Below, one piece after another: positions 19,142-27,722 of a stretch of 64,000 nucleotides of DNA. A model generated the notes under the pieces. The model saw nothing but the letters and a program-made list of their open reading frames with translations, made no database searches and was not told where the DNA came from. Origin of the DNA: an uncultured Prevotella sp. (GTDB lineage: Bacteria; Bacteroidota; Bacteroidia; Bacteroidales; Bacteroidaceae); NCBI GenBank assembly GCA_905234845.1, contig CAJOIW010000006.1, forward strand, positions 1 through 64,000, written 5' to 3'. Within the stretch, counting starts at the first letter, position 1. Every line of letters starts with the position of its first letter. The translations under genes were made by a program, and so were the position numbers.

Positions 19142-20647
19142 ATGATGAAAAGTAAAACAAGTATCGTTTTTAGCCTGCTGGTATGCTTGCTGGCTATGAT
19201 GTTGTGGAGTTGTACTAACGGCAAGCAGCGCGAGCTGAATCGGCTGTTGGTGGAGCTGGCCGACGAGGATGCCACTATTGACCGCAGCGACTGGCAACAG
19301 ATTGTGGAGTTCCTGGATGCGAACAAAGCGCATTTCAAACAGTTTTTCGATGATGGTAACGTAGAGACAGATGAATTGAAGGAATATATCAGCGACCTAT
19401 TCGCTCATCGCCGACCACCAAAAGAAATCACATTTGTGGGCATTGGCGGCAAGGAGACGCTCGACGTAAAGTTCTATCTGGAACGCTCGGGCTCGATGTT
19501 ACCTTACGATGCACCCGGTGGTGACGGCTCGCTGAAAGCCGCTATAGTGCAGCTGCTCAACAATCTGCCTGGCAAAGATAACCGTCTGTTCGTGGTGAAC
19601 GACGGTGTGCATCCTTATCCGAAGGGCATCGACGAGTTTGTCAGGAGTGTAAACATTTTCGAGTCGACAAAGGGCATCGGCGACGCCAGCTATACCGACT
19701 TTGGCAGAATTTTTCGTGAGCTTTTGGAGAATACCAGTGACGATGAGCTATCAGTGCTGGTGACCGACATGATATATTCCACGCGGGAGATGGCCGGTGT
19801 GAACCCGATGAAGATATTTGCCGACGCCCAAGGCATGACACAGGCCGTATTTAAAGACGAGACCCGCCGACGCGCCATGCTCGTAGTGAAACTGTCGGGC
19901 TCATACAACGGTCCCTACTATCCCTACGACCAGCCAAAGGGCGGAACAGCCTATAACGGCCAGCGCCCCTATTACATCGTCGTGGTAGGCTCGAATGCGA
20001 ACATCCACCGGCTGACCACCGACGCCAACTATGCCCCGTTCAGCCGTTTCACCAGCCTGCGAGGCTTTGAGCACATGACGCTCTTCGGAGGCGACGATAT
20101 TTACAACCCCTACTATTCGCTCCTGCTTTCGGGCAAGGATATTCGCGGGCGTTTCTCGCCCGAGCGAGGACAGGCCGACCGCATCACCGCCATTGAAGGT
20201 GTGAAGCCCGACAAAGACAGCGGTGACATCCGTCTGGCATTGGCCGTAGACCTGAGCGGACTACTGGTGGAAGACGACTATCTGACCGACATTTCGAACT
20301 ACAAGGTAGAAAGCGCCGACGGATTCACCATCAAGGAGATACGCAAGGTGGGACGCGACGATGCCACACCGGCAGAGAAAAAATATTTGAAAAATGCCAC
20401 CCACATCTTCGTGCTCGAAGGCAGTGAGGTGCGCACCAACGAAGAGATGGAGATCAAACTGCTGAACCGACTGCCCGCATGGGTGGCGCAATCGTCGACC
20501 GACGACGACCGCAATACGGCAGCCTCCGGCTTCGCACAGACAACATTCGGACTGAAATATCTGATGCAAGGCATCTACGACGCCTATGCCCGCCATGCTA
20601 AGGACGAGCCTTGCTATTTTGAAATAGAACTGAAATTGAAAAGATGA
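19142..20647 (+). CDS. VWA-like lipoprotein, first gene of the tubulin/actin-like operon
   Basis: A 501-residue protein with a lipoprotein signal peptide (lipobox LWSC, Cys24). A VWA-like fold is suggested by a beta-strand ending LERSGSM at residues 113-119, a threonine loop (ASYTDFGRIF) and LVTDMIYS at about residue 209. The first MIDAS residue is Glu instead of Asp (ExSxS). The rest has no family I recognise. It should be anchored in the cell envelope by a lipid. Downstream genes are a membrane protein, a tubulin-like GTPase and an actin-like ATPase protein on the same strand, so a joint function at the envelope is likely. A promoter and a leader repeat shared with lpxD precede it. Confidence 0.75.
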   Translation: MMKSKTSIVFSLLVCLLAMMLWSCTNGKQRELNRLLVELADEDATIDRSDWQQIVEFLDANKAHFKQFFDDGNVETDELKEYISDLFAHRRPPKEITFVGIGGKETLDVKFYLERSGSMLPYDAPGGDGSLKAAIVQLLNNLPGKDNRLFVVNDGVHPYPKGIDEFVRSVNIFESTKGIGDASYTDFGRIFRELLENTSDDELSVLVTDMIYSTREMAGVNPMKIFADAQGMTQAVFKDETRRRAMLVVKLSGSYNGPYYPYDQPKGGTAYNGQRPYYIVVVGSNANIHRLTTDANYAPFSRFTSLRGFEHMTLFGGDDIYNPYYSLLLSGKDIRGRFSPERGQADRITAIEGVKPDKDSGDIRLALAVDLSGLLVEDDYLTDISNYKVESADGFTIKEIRKVGRDDATPAEKKYLKNATHIFVLEGSEVRTNEEMEIKLLNRLPAWVAQSSTDDDRNTAASGFAQTTFGLKYLMQGIYDAYARHAKDEPCYFEIELKLKR

Positions 20648-21288: not shown

Positions 21289-22833
21289 ATGCGACTATTT
21301 CTTTTTCTTGTAGGCGGTACAGGCTCACGCGTGATGAGACCGCTGATTATGCAATTTGCTGCTGGCGTTCATCCTTTAGATGAAAGCGGGCAACCCCTTC
21401 CGCTGGAAGTGGTGCCTATCGTGATTGACCCACATCAGGCAAATGAAGACCTAAAGCGCACGGAAAACCTGATGCGCTGGTATAAGCAGACACGGAAAAC
21501 GCTCTACGGCGACGACGTGGATGTGAGAAAGGGATTCTTCTCGGTGAAAATCTCCACTCTCAGCGACATTCTGCCCAACGGCTCGAACCTCAGTGACACG
21601 TTCCTGTTTAACATGAACGCCATAGAGTCGAAAAAATTCAAAGATTTCATCTCCTTCTCGACACTCGACACGGCAAACCAGGCCCTGTGCTCGATGATGT
21701 TCTCCAACGACCAGCTTGAGACAAAAATGGACATTGGATTCGTGGGCAGTCCTAACATCGGCAGCGTGGCTCTCAACCAGTTCAAGGAGAGTGAGGAGTT
21801 TCGGCAGTTCTCCAACGTGTTCCAGAAAAACGACCGCATCTTCGTCGTATCAAGCATCTTTGGCGGAACTGGCGCTGCAGGTTATCCCATCATCGTGAAG
21901 AATATCCGTAACGCAGGCAAGAATGCCCAGATAAACAACCGCGGTGATCTGCGCGACGCAAGAATAGGAGCCCTCACCGTGCTACCCTACTTCAACATCC
22001 AGCAAGACGAGAAAAGCCCTATCTCACGGGCAGACTTCATCTCGAAGACTAAGTCGGCACTCTACTATTATCACGACAACCTGACGGGATTGCGTCAAAA
22101 CGGTGTCGACCTACCCATGTCGAAAGTCAATGCCTGCTATTACCTCGGCGATGAGGTTCCCAGCAATCCATACTTCAACGACCCAGGCGGGAACGGACAG
22201 CGCAACGACGCACATGTAGTGGAATATGTAGGAGCACTGGCCGTGCTCGACTTCATGCAGATTCCCGACGAGATGCTCGTTACTGTCGACGGCAACGCGC
22301 AAAACCCCATCTTCAAAGAATATGGACTCAGCAACGACAAACGCACTCTCACACTGAAGGATTTCGGCATCGAGACACGCACCATCGTCAACAAACAAAT
22401 GGCGAAATTCTATCTGGCATACCAGTATCTCACCCATCAGTTCCGCAGCGATATCGGACGAGGATATACACAGGACAAACCAGAAATTGGGAGCGGTTTC
22501 ACTACCACCTCGTTCTTTACCACATTGACTAACAGTTTCTTCGTGGGCTACCGTCAGTGGCTCAAGGAACTTAAGGGCAATCAACGTAGCTTTGCACCGT
22601 TTAACCTAGACACCACCAAATTGAGTGAGGGACTGAACGATATTGCGCCAAAAACAGGACTCTTCAAGTCGACCATCGACTATAAAACGCTACTCTCTGC
22701 ATTAAACAAAGAGTCGCAAACAGCTACCCGCACACAGAAATACGCATCGAACAACGTTGCCTATAAACTGATGAACCTGCTTGATGAGGTGTTAGACAAA
22801 CTAATAGATGAAAAGTTCAATAGTGTGATTTGA
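21289..22833 (+). CDS. tubulin/FtsZ-like GTPase
   Basis: A 514-residue protein. It opens with a Rossmann-type strand and phosphate loop, LFLVGGTGSRVMRPL (residues 4-18). At residues 191-198 it carries FGGTGAAG, which fits the tubulin/FtsZ GTP-binding signature GGGTGSG, set as in FtsZ after a hydrophobic strand (RIFVVSSIFGGTGAAGYPII). It is longer than FtsZ and lacks obvious similarity to it elsewhere. It is probably a member of the Tubulin_2/FtsZ-like families of unknown role. The next gene, with an actin-type ATPase, begins one base after the stop, so the two are surely co-translated. GTP binding is predicted from the motif; polymerisation is inference. Confidence 0.78.
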   Translation: MRLFLFLVGGTGSRVMRPLIMQFAAGVHPLDESGQPLPLEVVPIVIDPHQANEDLKRTENLMRWYKQTRKTLYGDDVDVRKGFFSVKISTLSDILPNGSNLSDTFLFNMNAIESKKFKDFISFSTLDTANQALCSMMFSNDQLETKMDIGFVGSPNIGSVALNQFKESEEFRQFSNVFQKNDRIFVVSSIFGGTGAAGYPIIVKNIRNAGKNAQINNRGDLRDARIGALTVLPYFNIQQDEKSPISRADFISKTKSALYYYHDNLTGLRQNGVDLPMSKVNACYYLGDEVPSNPYFNDPGGNGQRNDAHVVEYVGALAVLDFMQIPDEMLVTVDGNAQNPIFKEYGLSNDKRTLTLKDFGIETRTIVNKQMAKFYLAYQYLTHQFRSDIGRGYTQDKPEIGSGFTTTSFFTTLTNSFFVGYRQWLKELKGNQRSFAPFNLDTTKLSEGLNDIAPKTGLFKSTIDYKTLLSALNKESQTATRTQKYASNNVAYKLMNLLDEVLDKLIDEKFNSVI

Positions 22834-22834
22834 A

Positions 22835-25800
22835 ATGAGCAAGATACTTTCATACAACAACAAGACAACAGGTGAGGGCTGGATAGTTTTAAATAGCCAG
22901 TACAATGCCGATGACATAGAAATGATTTCCGATCCCAACGGCGGACTCTCACAACAGCCCCGTACGGCCATCCCCTCTCCGTTGGCTCAGATGGACCTTG
23001 TTAAAAACGCTTTCAAACGACTTGCCGCCCACGCATCTCTTCGCGGAGAGGCGATGGACGAGAAGTTAGTTGCCAACGCCCTTGACATTGCACAACTCTT
23101 CTTCAACTTCGGAGAACTGCGCGGTCAAATGAAAATTGTACAGTGGGACCGCACAACCAGCCTTGAGCAGCTGAAGTCGTCTTCAGCCCACCGACTTCTG
23201 AGCGAGACCATAGAGATGTATCTCGATCAAGACAAGGAAGCATTCAACTTCGACAAACTCGACCGACTTTATTTCCTCATCTATGGCAATCAGGTCATCG
23301 GTTGCACCTCGCCCGTAACCCTGTTCATGGCCTCACCAAATGCAAAGGAAGGTATGTTCGACATTCCCGTTGAGCAGAACGTGAAACTCTTTGACCTTTG
23401 GCGACCACTATATCAGCGCGACGCCAAATTCGTGAAATACATCTATTCACTTTTTACGGCCTATCCGGAACTGAAAAAATACTGTGGCGAGGTAAACTCC
23501 TATCTCATTACCTGTTTCCCATTGCTCGACAAGGCTCTGCAAGCCGCCATCTTATCGGAAATAGGTAACCCCTCGGCATTTGATACAGAAAACGCAGAAC
23601 GCGCAAAAACATATCTGCAAACCACATTCACACAAATGGATGAGGGTGTGCAAGCTTTGGGTGTGCCCTTCTTTGAAGCCCGTCTGGCTGACATCCAAGC
23701 CGCCATTCAGAAGAGCGATTTCATGTTGGTTCCCTCACGTCAGGTAGACGAACAGATTCCCCTGGTGCTGCAAAACCAACTCAATGCCATGCCGTCAGAC
23801 CCGTTCACCTATATTACCGGAGCATGGAACAACGCTACCGTCATTACACCCGATGACTATCAGTTGCCACCAGAGAAACGCATCTTACCAGCAACCAACC
23901 ATCAGTATCCTTGGTTGACCGATGACGATTTCCTGCAACCTAATATCATCAAACTCGACTATGCCGTAGACAGCGACTGTTTCTTCAACGGTAACCTCGT
24001 AAAGACTTCACGTGAGGCCGACGATTGCGACTTCTTGTTGCCGATTAAACCGTTGTTCTTCAAATATTTCGACGTGAAAGACCTATGGGGAACTATTAAC
24101 GGCAAGCCTCGATTTGAACTTCAACATGCCAAGAACGGTGCAGTTGAGACCGTTACAGCCATTCTTCGTCTGCCCGTACAGAAACGCGGTGCCTGCATTA
24201 CCCTGCAACGCACCTATGTCGCAGCAGTAAATCTCGATTTGTCCTACGATCGCAAGAATAATCTCGGCCATTTTATCAGTGTACCTTTTGCCATCGGACT
24301 GTTCCCCTTCGTGCGCACTTCGACTGTCCCCCATTACAATGTCCAGCTCGTGGACCGTGCACTTGGCAATTTGGAAAACTATCGGCTTTCGTTGGCATTC
24401 TACCAAAACGGTTACCAAAATCATGTAGCCGATGATGATGTGATAGCCCGTGAACGAAGCCTGAAAGCCGAGAAGCGTGTCGGCTCGACCTATTATCGGC
24501 TGACATCCAATTTCGATTATATGAGTGTTGTGCTGACCGATGACCGCAACTCACTGGCTGCAGAAGGCATCGTCTGTCCGAGATGGAACGACTTCTATGA
24601 TGGTCACGAGCAGTTCACCTTCGCCGTTGACTTCGGAACGACGAACACCCATATTGAATATATGACCTCTACAGAGTTGCCCAAGCCACTCCATATTGAC
24701 TCGTTGTCGCGCGACCGCTTGCTGGCTACACTTTACAACGGTTCGAAGATTCTCTACGATGTCATCTTGAAGCAAGAGTTTCTGCCGAAGGAGATAGGCG
24801 GCGAGTATGGATTCCCCCAACGGACAGTACTCTCCGAAAGTGAGCGTCTTGACGCTGAGCATGTCGACCAGATTGTCTCGCTGGGCGACGCAAATATTCC
24901 GTTCATCTATGAGAAAGAGAGCATCGGCTATGGCAACCGCATTGTTCCGAACTTGAAATGGATGGTTGAACAGAGTCAAGACAAGCGCATTGCCGCCTAC
25001 TTGACCGAGTTAGCCCTACTCATGCGAACAAAGGTACTACTTGAGAATGGCGATTTATCGAAGACGCGCCTTATCTGGTTCTATCCATTGGCCATGAAGG
25101 TAGGCAAGATTGCCAAACTTGGAGAGATGTGGGAACGTATTGTCAGCCGGGTCTTTGGGATAATCCCAGACCACCAAAATCTCATCCAGATGCCTGAATC
25201 AGTTGCACCTTATTATTTCTATAAGTGTAGCAGCCAGTTCCGGGGCTCCGCCTCTACAGTGGCCAGTATCGACATTGGTGGCGGATCGAGTGATGTCGTG
25301 GTGTTTGAAGCCAACGAGAAGCAGCCTACCATGCTCACTTCGTTCCGTTTCGCAGCCAACGTACTCTTTGGCGACGGTTTCTCCGAAGTACCACATGGCG
25401 ACACCAACCCCATGCTGGTAAAGTATGTCGATTATTTCCATCATCTTTTCAATGCTGATGATGAGAAATACGGCGAACTGAGCGGTATCCTTGAAAACAT
25501 CACCTCGCGCCGTAAAAGCGAAGACATCAATGCTTTCCTCTTCTCGATCATCAACAACCGCGTAGTGGGAGGCAACGACGTATTCTCCTATAACCTGCGA
25601 CTGAACGAAGACGGACAATTTAAGATTGTGTTCATCTATTTCTATGTTGCTCTTGTCTACTATGTGGCTCACATGATGAAGCATCGTGGTTTACAGAAGC
25701 CCCGAAGCCTCATGTTTAGCGGTACAGGAAGCAAGGTGCTCGACATTGTAGGAGCCCAACGTGAGATCAATCTGCTGACCCAGGCCGTCTTCGAACGTGT

Positions 25801-26305: not shown

Positions 26306-26881
26306 ATGTTTTCAAAGTTTCTAAGCAAGACTTCCGACTCCAATCCCGATGCGACTGAAGTCATCGAGACACCTGAGTGGCGACAACTTTCACAACTCGA
26401 AGCCCGTGTAAAGCAGTTAGAAAAGCGCGTAACCCTGCTTGAAGCAGAGTTGAATAAAAAGAAGGAGGAGATGGCGAAAGAAAAGGAAGAGAAAGAAGAA
26501 AAGAAAAATGGCTTGATTGAGAGCGAAGTCGTCTGCAATGATGTTACGCCCCATGTTTCAAGCACAACTACACTCTTCCTTTCCGCTCCCGATGCTGAAG
26601 GTATCTTCACTGACTGCGACACATCTGAACAGATTGGAAAGAGCATGTATCGCCTGACCACAAAAGATGGTATCACAGGAACCTTTGAGGTGCTTGACAC
26701 TCCCGATGCTCTTGCTACAGCTCTCATCAGCGTGTCACAATTTGTGAAACCTGCCTGCCGTGTTGTCGGCGGCGTGCCTCCATTTCCTCGTCAGATTCTT
26801 ACTCAGGAGGTTGGAACAGCTAAATGCGAAGAAAAGGTGTGGCGTGTTGTAAGTAAAGCTATCGTATCATTCAGTGCATAG
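26306..26881 (+). CDS. coiled-coil protein of the tubulin/actin-like operon
   Basis: A 191-residue protein with no signal peptide. Residues about 26-70 are a strongly charged heptad coiled coil (QLSQLEARVKQLEKRVTLLE), with a Lys/Glu tail. The remaining about 110 residues look like a small globular domain (STTTLFLSAPDAEGIF, TTKDGITGTFEVLD). No family is recognised. It starts 3 bp after the actin-like gene, so it is likely a partner or adaptor of that ATPase, perhaps linking it to the membrane proteins of the operon. Confidence 0.75.
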   Translation: MFSKFLSKTSDSNPDATEVIETPEWRQLSQLEARVKQLEKRVTLLEAELNKKKEEMAKEKEEKEEKKNGLIESEVVCNDVTPHVSSTTTLFLSAPDAEGIFTDCDTSEQIGKSMYRLTTKDGITGTFEVLDTPDALATALISVSQFVKPACRVVGGVPPFPRQILTQEVGTAKCEEKVWRVVSKAIVSFSA

Positions 26882-26919: not shown

Positions 26920-26947
26920 GAACTATAAGTTATGAACTATAAGTTAT
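26920..26947. repeat. heptamer-period repeat at a start codon
   Basis: GAACTAT-AAGTTAT occurs twice in tandem. The second AAGTTAT contains the first two bases of the ATG of the zinc-ribbon gene, so the initiation region itself is repeat DNA. Confidence 0.8.
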
Positions 26948-27722
26948 GATTTTAAAATGTCCCCATTGCAGGTTTAAATACGAAGACGAAGTCAAGCCCG
27001 GTATCGAGGAGTTGTCTTGTGTCTGTCCACGTTGTGCCTATCCGTTCACGGTAACCCTTGAAAGTGGCAATGTTTCCCAAAGCTCCGACCAGTCCTCAAT
27101 CGAAAAGGAAGATTCCCCAACGCATTCATCTTCTTCTCTTGAAAGAGATGGAAAAGTGGGTTCCCTGAATACGGGTGCGGAAACAAGTGAGCCTGCGTGG
27201 ATTACCCAGCCTGCACAAAACCAGCCTACTATCCCTCCACAAGGATGGGGAGTGGAAAGAAGGCCCCCTCAGCAGGGAGGCTCTGGAGGACTTCGGGGCT
27301 CTTGTTGTCTGAAGTCGCTCATCATATTTGTCATCGTAACTGTGGGCGTCGTCTTGTTGACCAGAAGCTGTTACGAGTCGTTCACTGCCGATGACCTGGG
27401 CAACGACAACTACGCCCCTGCCACCGAAACCTCGCGCGACGACGCCTACGCCAACGATCCGCATCCCAGCAAGCTGCCCAAATGGGTACAAGGTAACTGG
27501 GTCTATAATGATGAAAACGGCTTTCAAGTTAGTGTCAACATTCGCGGGCGTAAGATTTCCGAGACCTCAGGCGGACAGACTTCTTACGGAACAATAACCT
27601 TCGACGGCGACAATATCACAGCCGACTTTGGTGACAGCCACACCATGCGCTACAAAGTCTATAAAGAAGAGAAAGTCATCGACTGCGGAGGATCTAATAT
27701 GAAAATGAAAAAAATAGAATAA
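26946..27722 (+). CDS. zinc-ribbon, single-pass membrane protein of the operon
   Basis: The 258-residue protein starts with a zinc ribbon (CPHC at residues 5-8 and CPRC at 27-30) of the type found at the N-terminus of many membrane-tethered adaptors. A Ser/Pro/Gln-rich linker follows, then one membrane helix (LKSLIIFVIVTVGVVLLT, about residues 122-139) and a C-terminal extracytoplasmic domain of beta character (WVQGNWVYNDENGFQVSVNI ... MRYKVYKEEKVIDCGG). The ribbon should face the cytoplasm, so the protein could carry signals between the cytoplasmic filament-like proteins and the envelope. It is the last gene before dnaB, which begins 30 bp later. Confidence 0.75.
   Translation: MILKCPHCRFKYEDEVKPGIEELSCVCPRCAYPFTVTLESGNVSQSSDQSSIEKEDSPTHSSSSLERDGKVGSLNTGAETSEPAWITQPAQNQPTIPPQGWGVERRPPQQGGSGGLRGSCCLKSLIIFVIVTVGVVLLTRSCYESFTADDLGNDNYAPATETSRDDAYANDPHPSKLPKWVQGNWVYNDENGFQVSVNIRGRKISETSGGQTSYGTITFDGDNITADFGDSHTMRYKVYKEEKVIDCGGSNMKMKKIE

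Follow-up and report, generated by a model that had tools for sequence, protein, structure and literature searches.

A divergent tubulin/FtsZ-superfamily protein encoded beside a giant actin/Hsp70-fold ATPase and a vWA-like lipoprotein in an uncultured Prevotella

Gene content of the locus

The window, a 64,000-nucleotide stretch of contig CAJOIW010000006.1 from an uncultured Prevotella sp., encodes a core of four genes followed by variable 3' genes (Table 1). The tubulin-like open reading frame is intact from ATG to stop, and the ATPase gene begins one base past that stop codon. The operon does not stand out in GC content, and the intergenic stretch 5' of the tubulin-like gene shows neither conservation nor an Rfam match.

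Table 1. Genes and sequence features of the locus (positions in the window)
Feature	Position	Strand	Basis
Core gene 1, lipoprotein with vWA-like domain, 501 aa	19142..20647	+	Lipobox, motif, AF2/Foldseek
Lipobox Cys24	19211-19213	+	Invariant in 24 relatives
MIDAS-like E114-R-S-G-S-M	19481-19498	+	S116 invariant in 24 homologues
Conserved D209 of lipoprotein	19766-19768	+	Invariant in 24 homologues
Core gene 2, integral membrane protein, 148 aa, four predicted TM helices	20705..21151	+	Hydropathy
Core gene 3, tubulin/FtsZ-superfamily protein, 514 aa	21289..22833	+	Pfam/phmmer/tblastn/hhalign homology and AF2 model
T1-like loop GGTGSR, residues 9-14	21313..21330	+	Conservation across 29 orthologues
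T4-like loop SIFGGTGAAG, residues 189-198	21853..21882	+	S189, F191-G195 invariant, 29/29
H7-like helix region Q304-F322	22198..22254	+	Alignment of 29; helix 310-324 in AF2 model
Core gene 4, actin/Hsp70-fold ATPase, 1155 aa	22835..26302	+	Family profile against MreB, Hsp70/DnaK; motifs
ATPase phosphate-1 DFGTTNT	24629-24649	+	
ATPase phosphate-2 DIGGGSSD	25271-25294	+	
ATPase adenosine-like motif SGTGSK	about 25715-25735	+	
Variable 3' gene, coiled-coil protein, 191 aa, cluster 4	26306..26881	+	Coiled-coil-type Pfam matches, sub-threshold
Variable 3' gene, 258 aa, cluster 7; N-terminal CxxC zinc-ribbon-like part, TM helix 120-138, C-terminal part	26946..27722	+	

Sequence and predicted fold of the tubulin-like protein

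The original prediction placed an LFLVGGTGSR loop near the N-terminus and an FGGTGAAG motif after a hydrophobic strand. Both are present, at residues 5-14 and 191-198, the latter preceded by the strand IFVVSSI. In an alignment of 29 proteins that are 20-78% identical to the window protein, residues G9, G10, G12, S189 and F191-G195 are invariant, T11 is kept in 27/29 and R14 in 28/29. Because they are invariant across orthologues as little as ~20% identical, these glycine motifs are conserved beyond chance.

Scans of the single protein with Pfam, NCBIfam and PADLOC gave sub-threshold matches only, and family-wide scans settled its identity. By itself the window protein matches Tubulin_2 (E=0.00099; 18.9 bits for PF13809, cut-off 27) and Tubulin (E=0.0017) below the curated cut-offs. 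Among the orthologues, PF00091 (Tubulin) is matched by 27/29 and PF13809 (Tubulin_2) by 24/29, the best of these matches having E=3e-9. A phmmer search found FtsZ over residues 121-210 (E=0.0011), and tblastn found a protein from a Gloeothece plasmid with a tubulin-like annotation (E=7e-15). With hhalign, a profile of tubulin-like proteins from cyanobacterial plasmids and long fused forms aligned at E=5e-32; the genome's own two FtsZs alone, a profile too shallow to be informative, gave probability 1.2 and E=0.043. The predicted superfamily membership was thus borne out by the orthologue Pfam matches, FtsZ and the cyanobacterial protein. The accompanying statement that the protein is not FtsZ or TubZ also holds: it scores 14.4 bits against the curated NCBIfam ftsZ model (cut-off 295.2), and no partition adaptor was recognised. 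Judged from these homologies, the 514-aa protein is a true but very divergent member of the FtsZ/tubulin superfamily, and it represents a Bacteroidota branch of FtsZl1/Tubulin_2, an assignment that refers to homology to the branch and not to a strict motif match.

The source genome also carries two full FtsZ genes (L087, G000:C4:18769-19761; L088, G000:C22:35792-36730) that are 45% identical and both exceed the ftsZ cut-off. L087 adjoins ftsA, and L088 may be a paralogue or lie on a contaminant contig.

The T4 signature of tubulin and FtsZ (PROSITE pattern) is [SAG]GGTG[SA]G. In the 29 relatives the GGTG core is invariant, and the FGGTGA[AS] form deviates at the first and last positions, a deviation that the cyanobacterial relatives share. 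Within the H7-like helix, Q304 and E312 are invariant and N306 is kept in 27/29; by analogy with FtsZ, N306 may contact guanine. The 29-orthologue alignment has no conserved acidic residue after H7 that would correspond to the T7 catalytic acid. Since the H7-like residues are kept and the T7 acid was not found, GTP binding is plausible and FtsZ-type assembly-coupled hydrolysis doubtful. An FtsZ-type filament is unproven, given the deviating T4 signature and the same T7 gap.

An AF2 model built from 19 sequences (pLDDT 75.5, pTM 0.83) has the order S1-T1-H1, S4-T4-H4, S5, H5, S6, H7 and a helical C-terminal domain, which fits the superfamily. Its best PDB fold matches include FtsZ, Odin tubulin, eukaryotic tubulin and CetZ, with probabilities mostly of 0.8-1.00, E-values of 0.003-0.05 and low TM-scores. 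The predicted fold agrees with the superfamily and is no strong proof by itself.

Partner proteins, variable genes and distribution

The main point that the original prediction missed is the constant partner, a giant actin/Hsp70-fold ATPase. In 53/53 loci its gene comes immediately 3' of the tubulin-like one and shares its strand, with a median gap of 11 bp. This count covers loci where neither gene is damaged and the two are not fused, a few of them running off a contig end; it leaves out near-duplicates, the damaged L066 with no ATPase gene and the fused L076 and L077. Among 22 members of the ATPase family, D599, G601, N604, D813, G815, G816 and D820 are invariant. The family profile matches MreB (E=1e-6) and Hsp70/DnaK (E=6e-5 to 4e-4), and Pfam matches to FtsA, Ppx-GppA, EutA and SrfB are weak. 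Run on 297 phylum genomes, the profile also detects short segments of ORFs of FtsA- or MreB-like length. Full-length matches (E<1e-50) in this sample occur solely in genomes with the tubulin-like gene, which is present in all seven (G000, G016, G072, G091, G166, G184 and G250).

In two loci the partners are fused. L076:548-5395 and L077:9397-14442 each combine in one ORF (1615 and 1681 aa) an N-terminal tubulin-like and a C-terminal actin/Hsp70-like domain (A5 profile, E about 1e-10/1e-11; A6 profile, E=1e-6/3e-9), and a ZorA-like gene lies downstream. This fusion strongly suggests that the tubulin-like protein and the ATPase act in concert. L066:6925-12414, from a genome with 13% contamination, has a tubulin-like gene interrupted by a stop, lacks the large ATPase gene and keeps ZorAB-like genes.

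The first core gene, present in 48/53 loci, was correctly read as encoding a lipoprotein, as its signal peptide and the invariance of Cys24 in 24 aligned relatives attest, but its vWA-like domain had been overlooked. The protein has no Pfam match in the window protein scan, and its family profile found nothing relevant among PDB sequences. Its AF2 model (pLDDT 86.9, pTM 0.82) gave Foldseek results in which many top matches are vWA/I domains (E 0.004-0.1), and the Gloeothece homologue reads HVDGSGSM, the textbook DGSGSM. The motif and the weak fold matches point to a vWA-like domain. The position of the TM gene is kept in 45/53 loci.

The genes 3' of the ATPase vary. The coiled-coil cluster occurs in 25/53 loci and the zinc-ribbon cluster, whose zinc-ribbon Pfam matches in the 258-aa protein are weak, in 17/53. 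A ZorA/ZorB-like pair (MotA/ZorA-like and MotB/ZorB-OmpA-like) is found in 19/53, with weak to clear scores (ZorB E=3e-14, ZorA about 1e-4, OmpA E=1e-4). Relatives also encode an aspartyl (retropepsin-like) protease, a trypsin-like protein, SNase, TerD and TPR proteins; the SNase gene of L067 is on the opposite strand and thus more weakly linked to the system. The window locus has no ZorAB-like pair in PADLOC and no recognisable effector enzyme. A subclade (L059, L060, L061, L073, L074 and L085) has tubulin-like proteins of 528-548 aa and no ZorAB-like genes. It carries TerD (L073) or similar-looking 192-aa genes without a Pfam match, and L059-L061 and L085 encode a TPR protein of about 880 aa.

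The four-gene core (vWA-like lipoprotein, TM protein, tubulin-like protein and ~1,150-aa ATPase) recurs in Bacteroidota and on cyanobacterial plasmids, where the large ATPase matches at E=2e-75 and 9e-53 and the vWA lipoprotein at E=1.5e-18. Its distribution is patchy, with the system present in 15/395 phylum genomes, 31/199 family genomes and 9/23 of a genus sample. In the protein tree, in which some branches are long and details unsure, the copies from one bacterial family are spread over several clades that lie well apart. Some copies are mobile: the L082 copy adjoins phage tail genes and the L085 copy an integrase. On L082:815-11439, an IMG/VR contig, the four core genes and a fifth gene have phage tail and DNA methylase genes next to them on the other strand, as for cargo of a phage-like element. 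None of 50,697 phage records gave a tubulin-like match.

The core is not covered by any PADLOC model, and PADLOC hits showed no excess of defence genes in a small sample of 103 flanking against 103 control proteins from random regions of related genomes. A phage-integrase family matches 2/103 flanking proteins and does not appear in the 25 families listed for the controls, in which a transposase family has two matches; these counts are not a difference. In the genus members examined, the TonB-type and dnaB genes that neighbour the system do not adjoin each other, and in G610, a genome without the system, other genes fill the ~13 kb between them.

Possible function and comparison with known systems

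We propose, with about even confidence for and against, that the locus encodes a membrane-tethered dual-NTPase switch that passes a signal from the envelope on to an output that can be exchanged. The tubulin-like protein would be the subunit that presumably binds guanine nucleotide in an accessory complex tethered to the membrane. Outside the inner membrane, the vWA-like lipoprotein would sense or bind a ligand, and the four-TM protein would carry the signal across the membrane. In the cytoplasm, the tubulin-like protein and the giant ATPase may form an NTP-driven switch or assembly. The swappable 3' module would deliver the output, through the coiled-coil and zinc-ribbon/TM proteins in the window locus and through a ZorA/ZorB-like motor, protease, nuclease or TerD proteins elsewhere. 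The likeliest role would be a response to envelope attack or stress, plausibly by phage. More speculatively, the system could be a machine of envelope immunity. A GTPase of the tubulin superfamily and an ATPase of the actin superfamily, in some bacteria fused into one chain, would drive it as a coupled engine that takes its input from a vWA lipoprotein sensor and, in many relatives, is linked to a ZorAB-like ion-driven motor. Such a machine, if real, would be previously undescribed.

The main rival of the switch reading is a true cytomotive filament that remodels membranes or forms vesicles, the role that Makarova and Koonin suggested for FtsZl1 (PMC2875224). The tubulin-like protein would polymerise on the membrane via its lipoprotein and TM partners, and the ATPase would form or regulate a second filament. 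Superfamily membership, the retained T1 and T4 loops, the actin-fold partner encoded alongside, the membrane proteins of the operon and the published proposal all speak for it. We nevertheless consider it rather unlikely: no conserved T7 catalytic acid was found in the alignment, the distribution is patchy, and both NTPases in one chain of 1615-1681 aa are hard to square with two simple filaments. A dedicated Zorya-style anti-phage system, in which the tubulin/actin/vWA core would act both as sensor of infection and as amplifier, is a narrower form of the switch reading, so that our confidence in the two overlaps; we judge it possible, though on the unlikely side. It would account for the ZorA/ZorB-like pair in 19/53 loci, the nuclease and protease cargo and the patchy, mobile copies that have phage tail genes (L082) or an integrase (L085) next to them, and related tubulin/HSP70/vWA sets have been proposed as conflict systems (PMC7159879). 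The flanks, however, show no defence-gene enrichment, MotAB-like proteins also work in secretion, gliding and import, and the window copy has no obvious killer enzyme.

The lipoprotein, TM, OmpA/MotB-like and lipoprotein-type protease partners, and the presence of the system in many commensals, would also suit a non-defence accessory envelope function, for instance export linked to a motor, assembly of surface structures or upkeep of the envelope in particular conditions. This seems unlikely to us, as the system is very patchy inside one genus and the loci show no conserved secreted substrate or structural gene. Positioning of DNA or virions in the manner of TubZ, RepX or PhuZ might be suspected from the tubulin superfamily and from copies on plasmids or a phage-like contig. 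It is highly improbable, and we rejected TubZ-like partition: no centromere-binding partner or adaptor was recognised, most copies are chromosomal, the partners are a lipoprotein and membrane proteins, and the 50,697 phage records hold no match.

The tubulin and actin superfamilies are the two great cytoskeletal NTPase classes, and here they are always co-encoded and sometimes joined in one polypeptide. The searchable literature, outside which lie subscription papers and preprints, holds no account of the tubulin/actin-fold/vWA-lipoprotein core or of the fusion. The locus suggests that a partner of FtsZl1 proteins has been overlooked and makes the question of what these proteins do directly testable. 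If the output of the switch is defence, a cytoskeletal-type core would be added to Zorya-like motor systems.

With bacterial FtsZ the window protein shares the superfamily and the T1/T4 loops; it differs in that no T7 match was found and in having another C-terminal half, and separate FtsZ genes are present in the same genome. Unlike TubZ/PhuZ, it is encoded in a chromosomal operon with a lipoprotein and an ATPase and no recognised DNA-binding adaptor. The ATPase belongs by its phosphate-1 and phosphate-2 sequence motifs to the actin/Hsp70 superfamily; its resemblance to SrfB of SrfABC is weak (PF07520, best E=0.04, 3/22 members).

FtsZl1 was described in 2010 with vWA partners and read as a membrane-remodelling protein; it has the T4 signature GGGTG(S/T)G, its T6-H7-T7 elements are not confidently identifiable, so that it too has the T7 gap, and most but not all members carry an extended coiled coil between the FtsZ domain and a helical C-terminal domain (PMC2875224). 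FtsZl1, which overlaps PF13809, resembles the window protein in keeping the T1 and T4 loops with no identifiable T6-T7. Both systems have vWA and membrane proteins in the operon, are patchy across phyla and coexist with a standard FtsZ; the OmpA-type partner of FtsZl1 has its counterpart in relatives of the window locus. The window protein departs from the FtsZl1 signature with FGGTGA[AS] at T4. It is also ~500 aa long, and its AF2 model has a helical C-terminal domain but not the long coiled coil of most FtsZl1 proteins. Its gene precedes the giant actin/Hsp70-fold ATPase, which is absent from the text of PMC2875224, and no P-loop GTPase or protein kinase gene was recognised in the window operon.

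The 19/53 related loci with a MotA/ZorA-like and MotB/ZorB-OmpA-like pair recall Zorya, which combines ZorA/ZorB with effectors (PMC11890865), whereas the window locus has no ZorAB and a tubulin/actin-fold/vWA core. Kaur et al. (2020, PMC7159879) placed tubulin, HSP70 and vWA components in predicted GTPase-centric conflict systems built around GAP1-N2. No GAP1-N2 GTPase or FNIII-repeat protein was recognised here, and general Pfam/NCBIfam profiles recognised no GTPase gene in the window operon; both kinds of system nonetheless bring together tubulin-superfamily, HSP70-superfamily and vWA proteins with a variable output.
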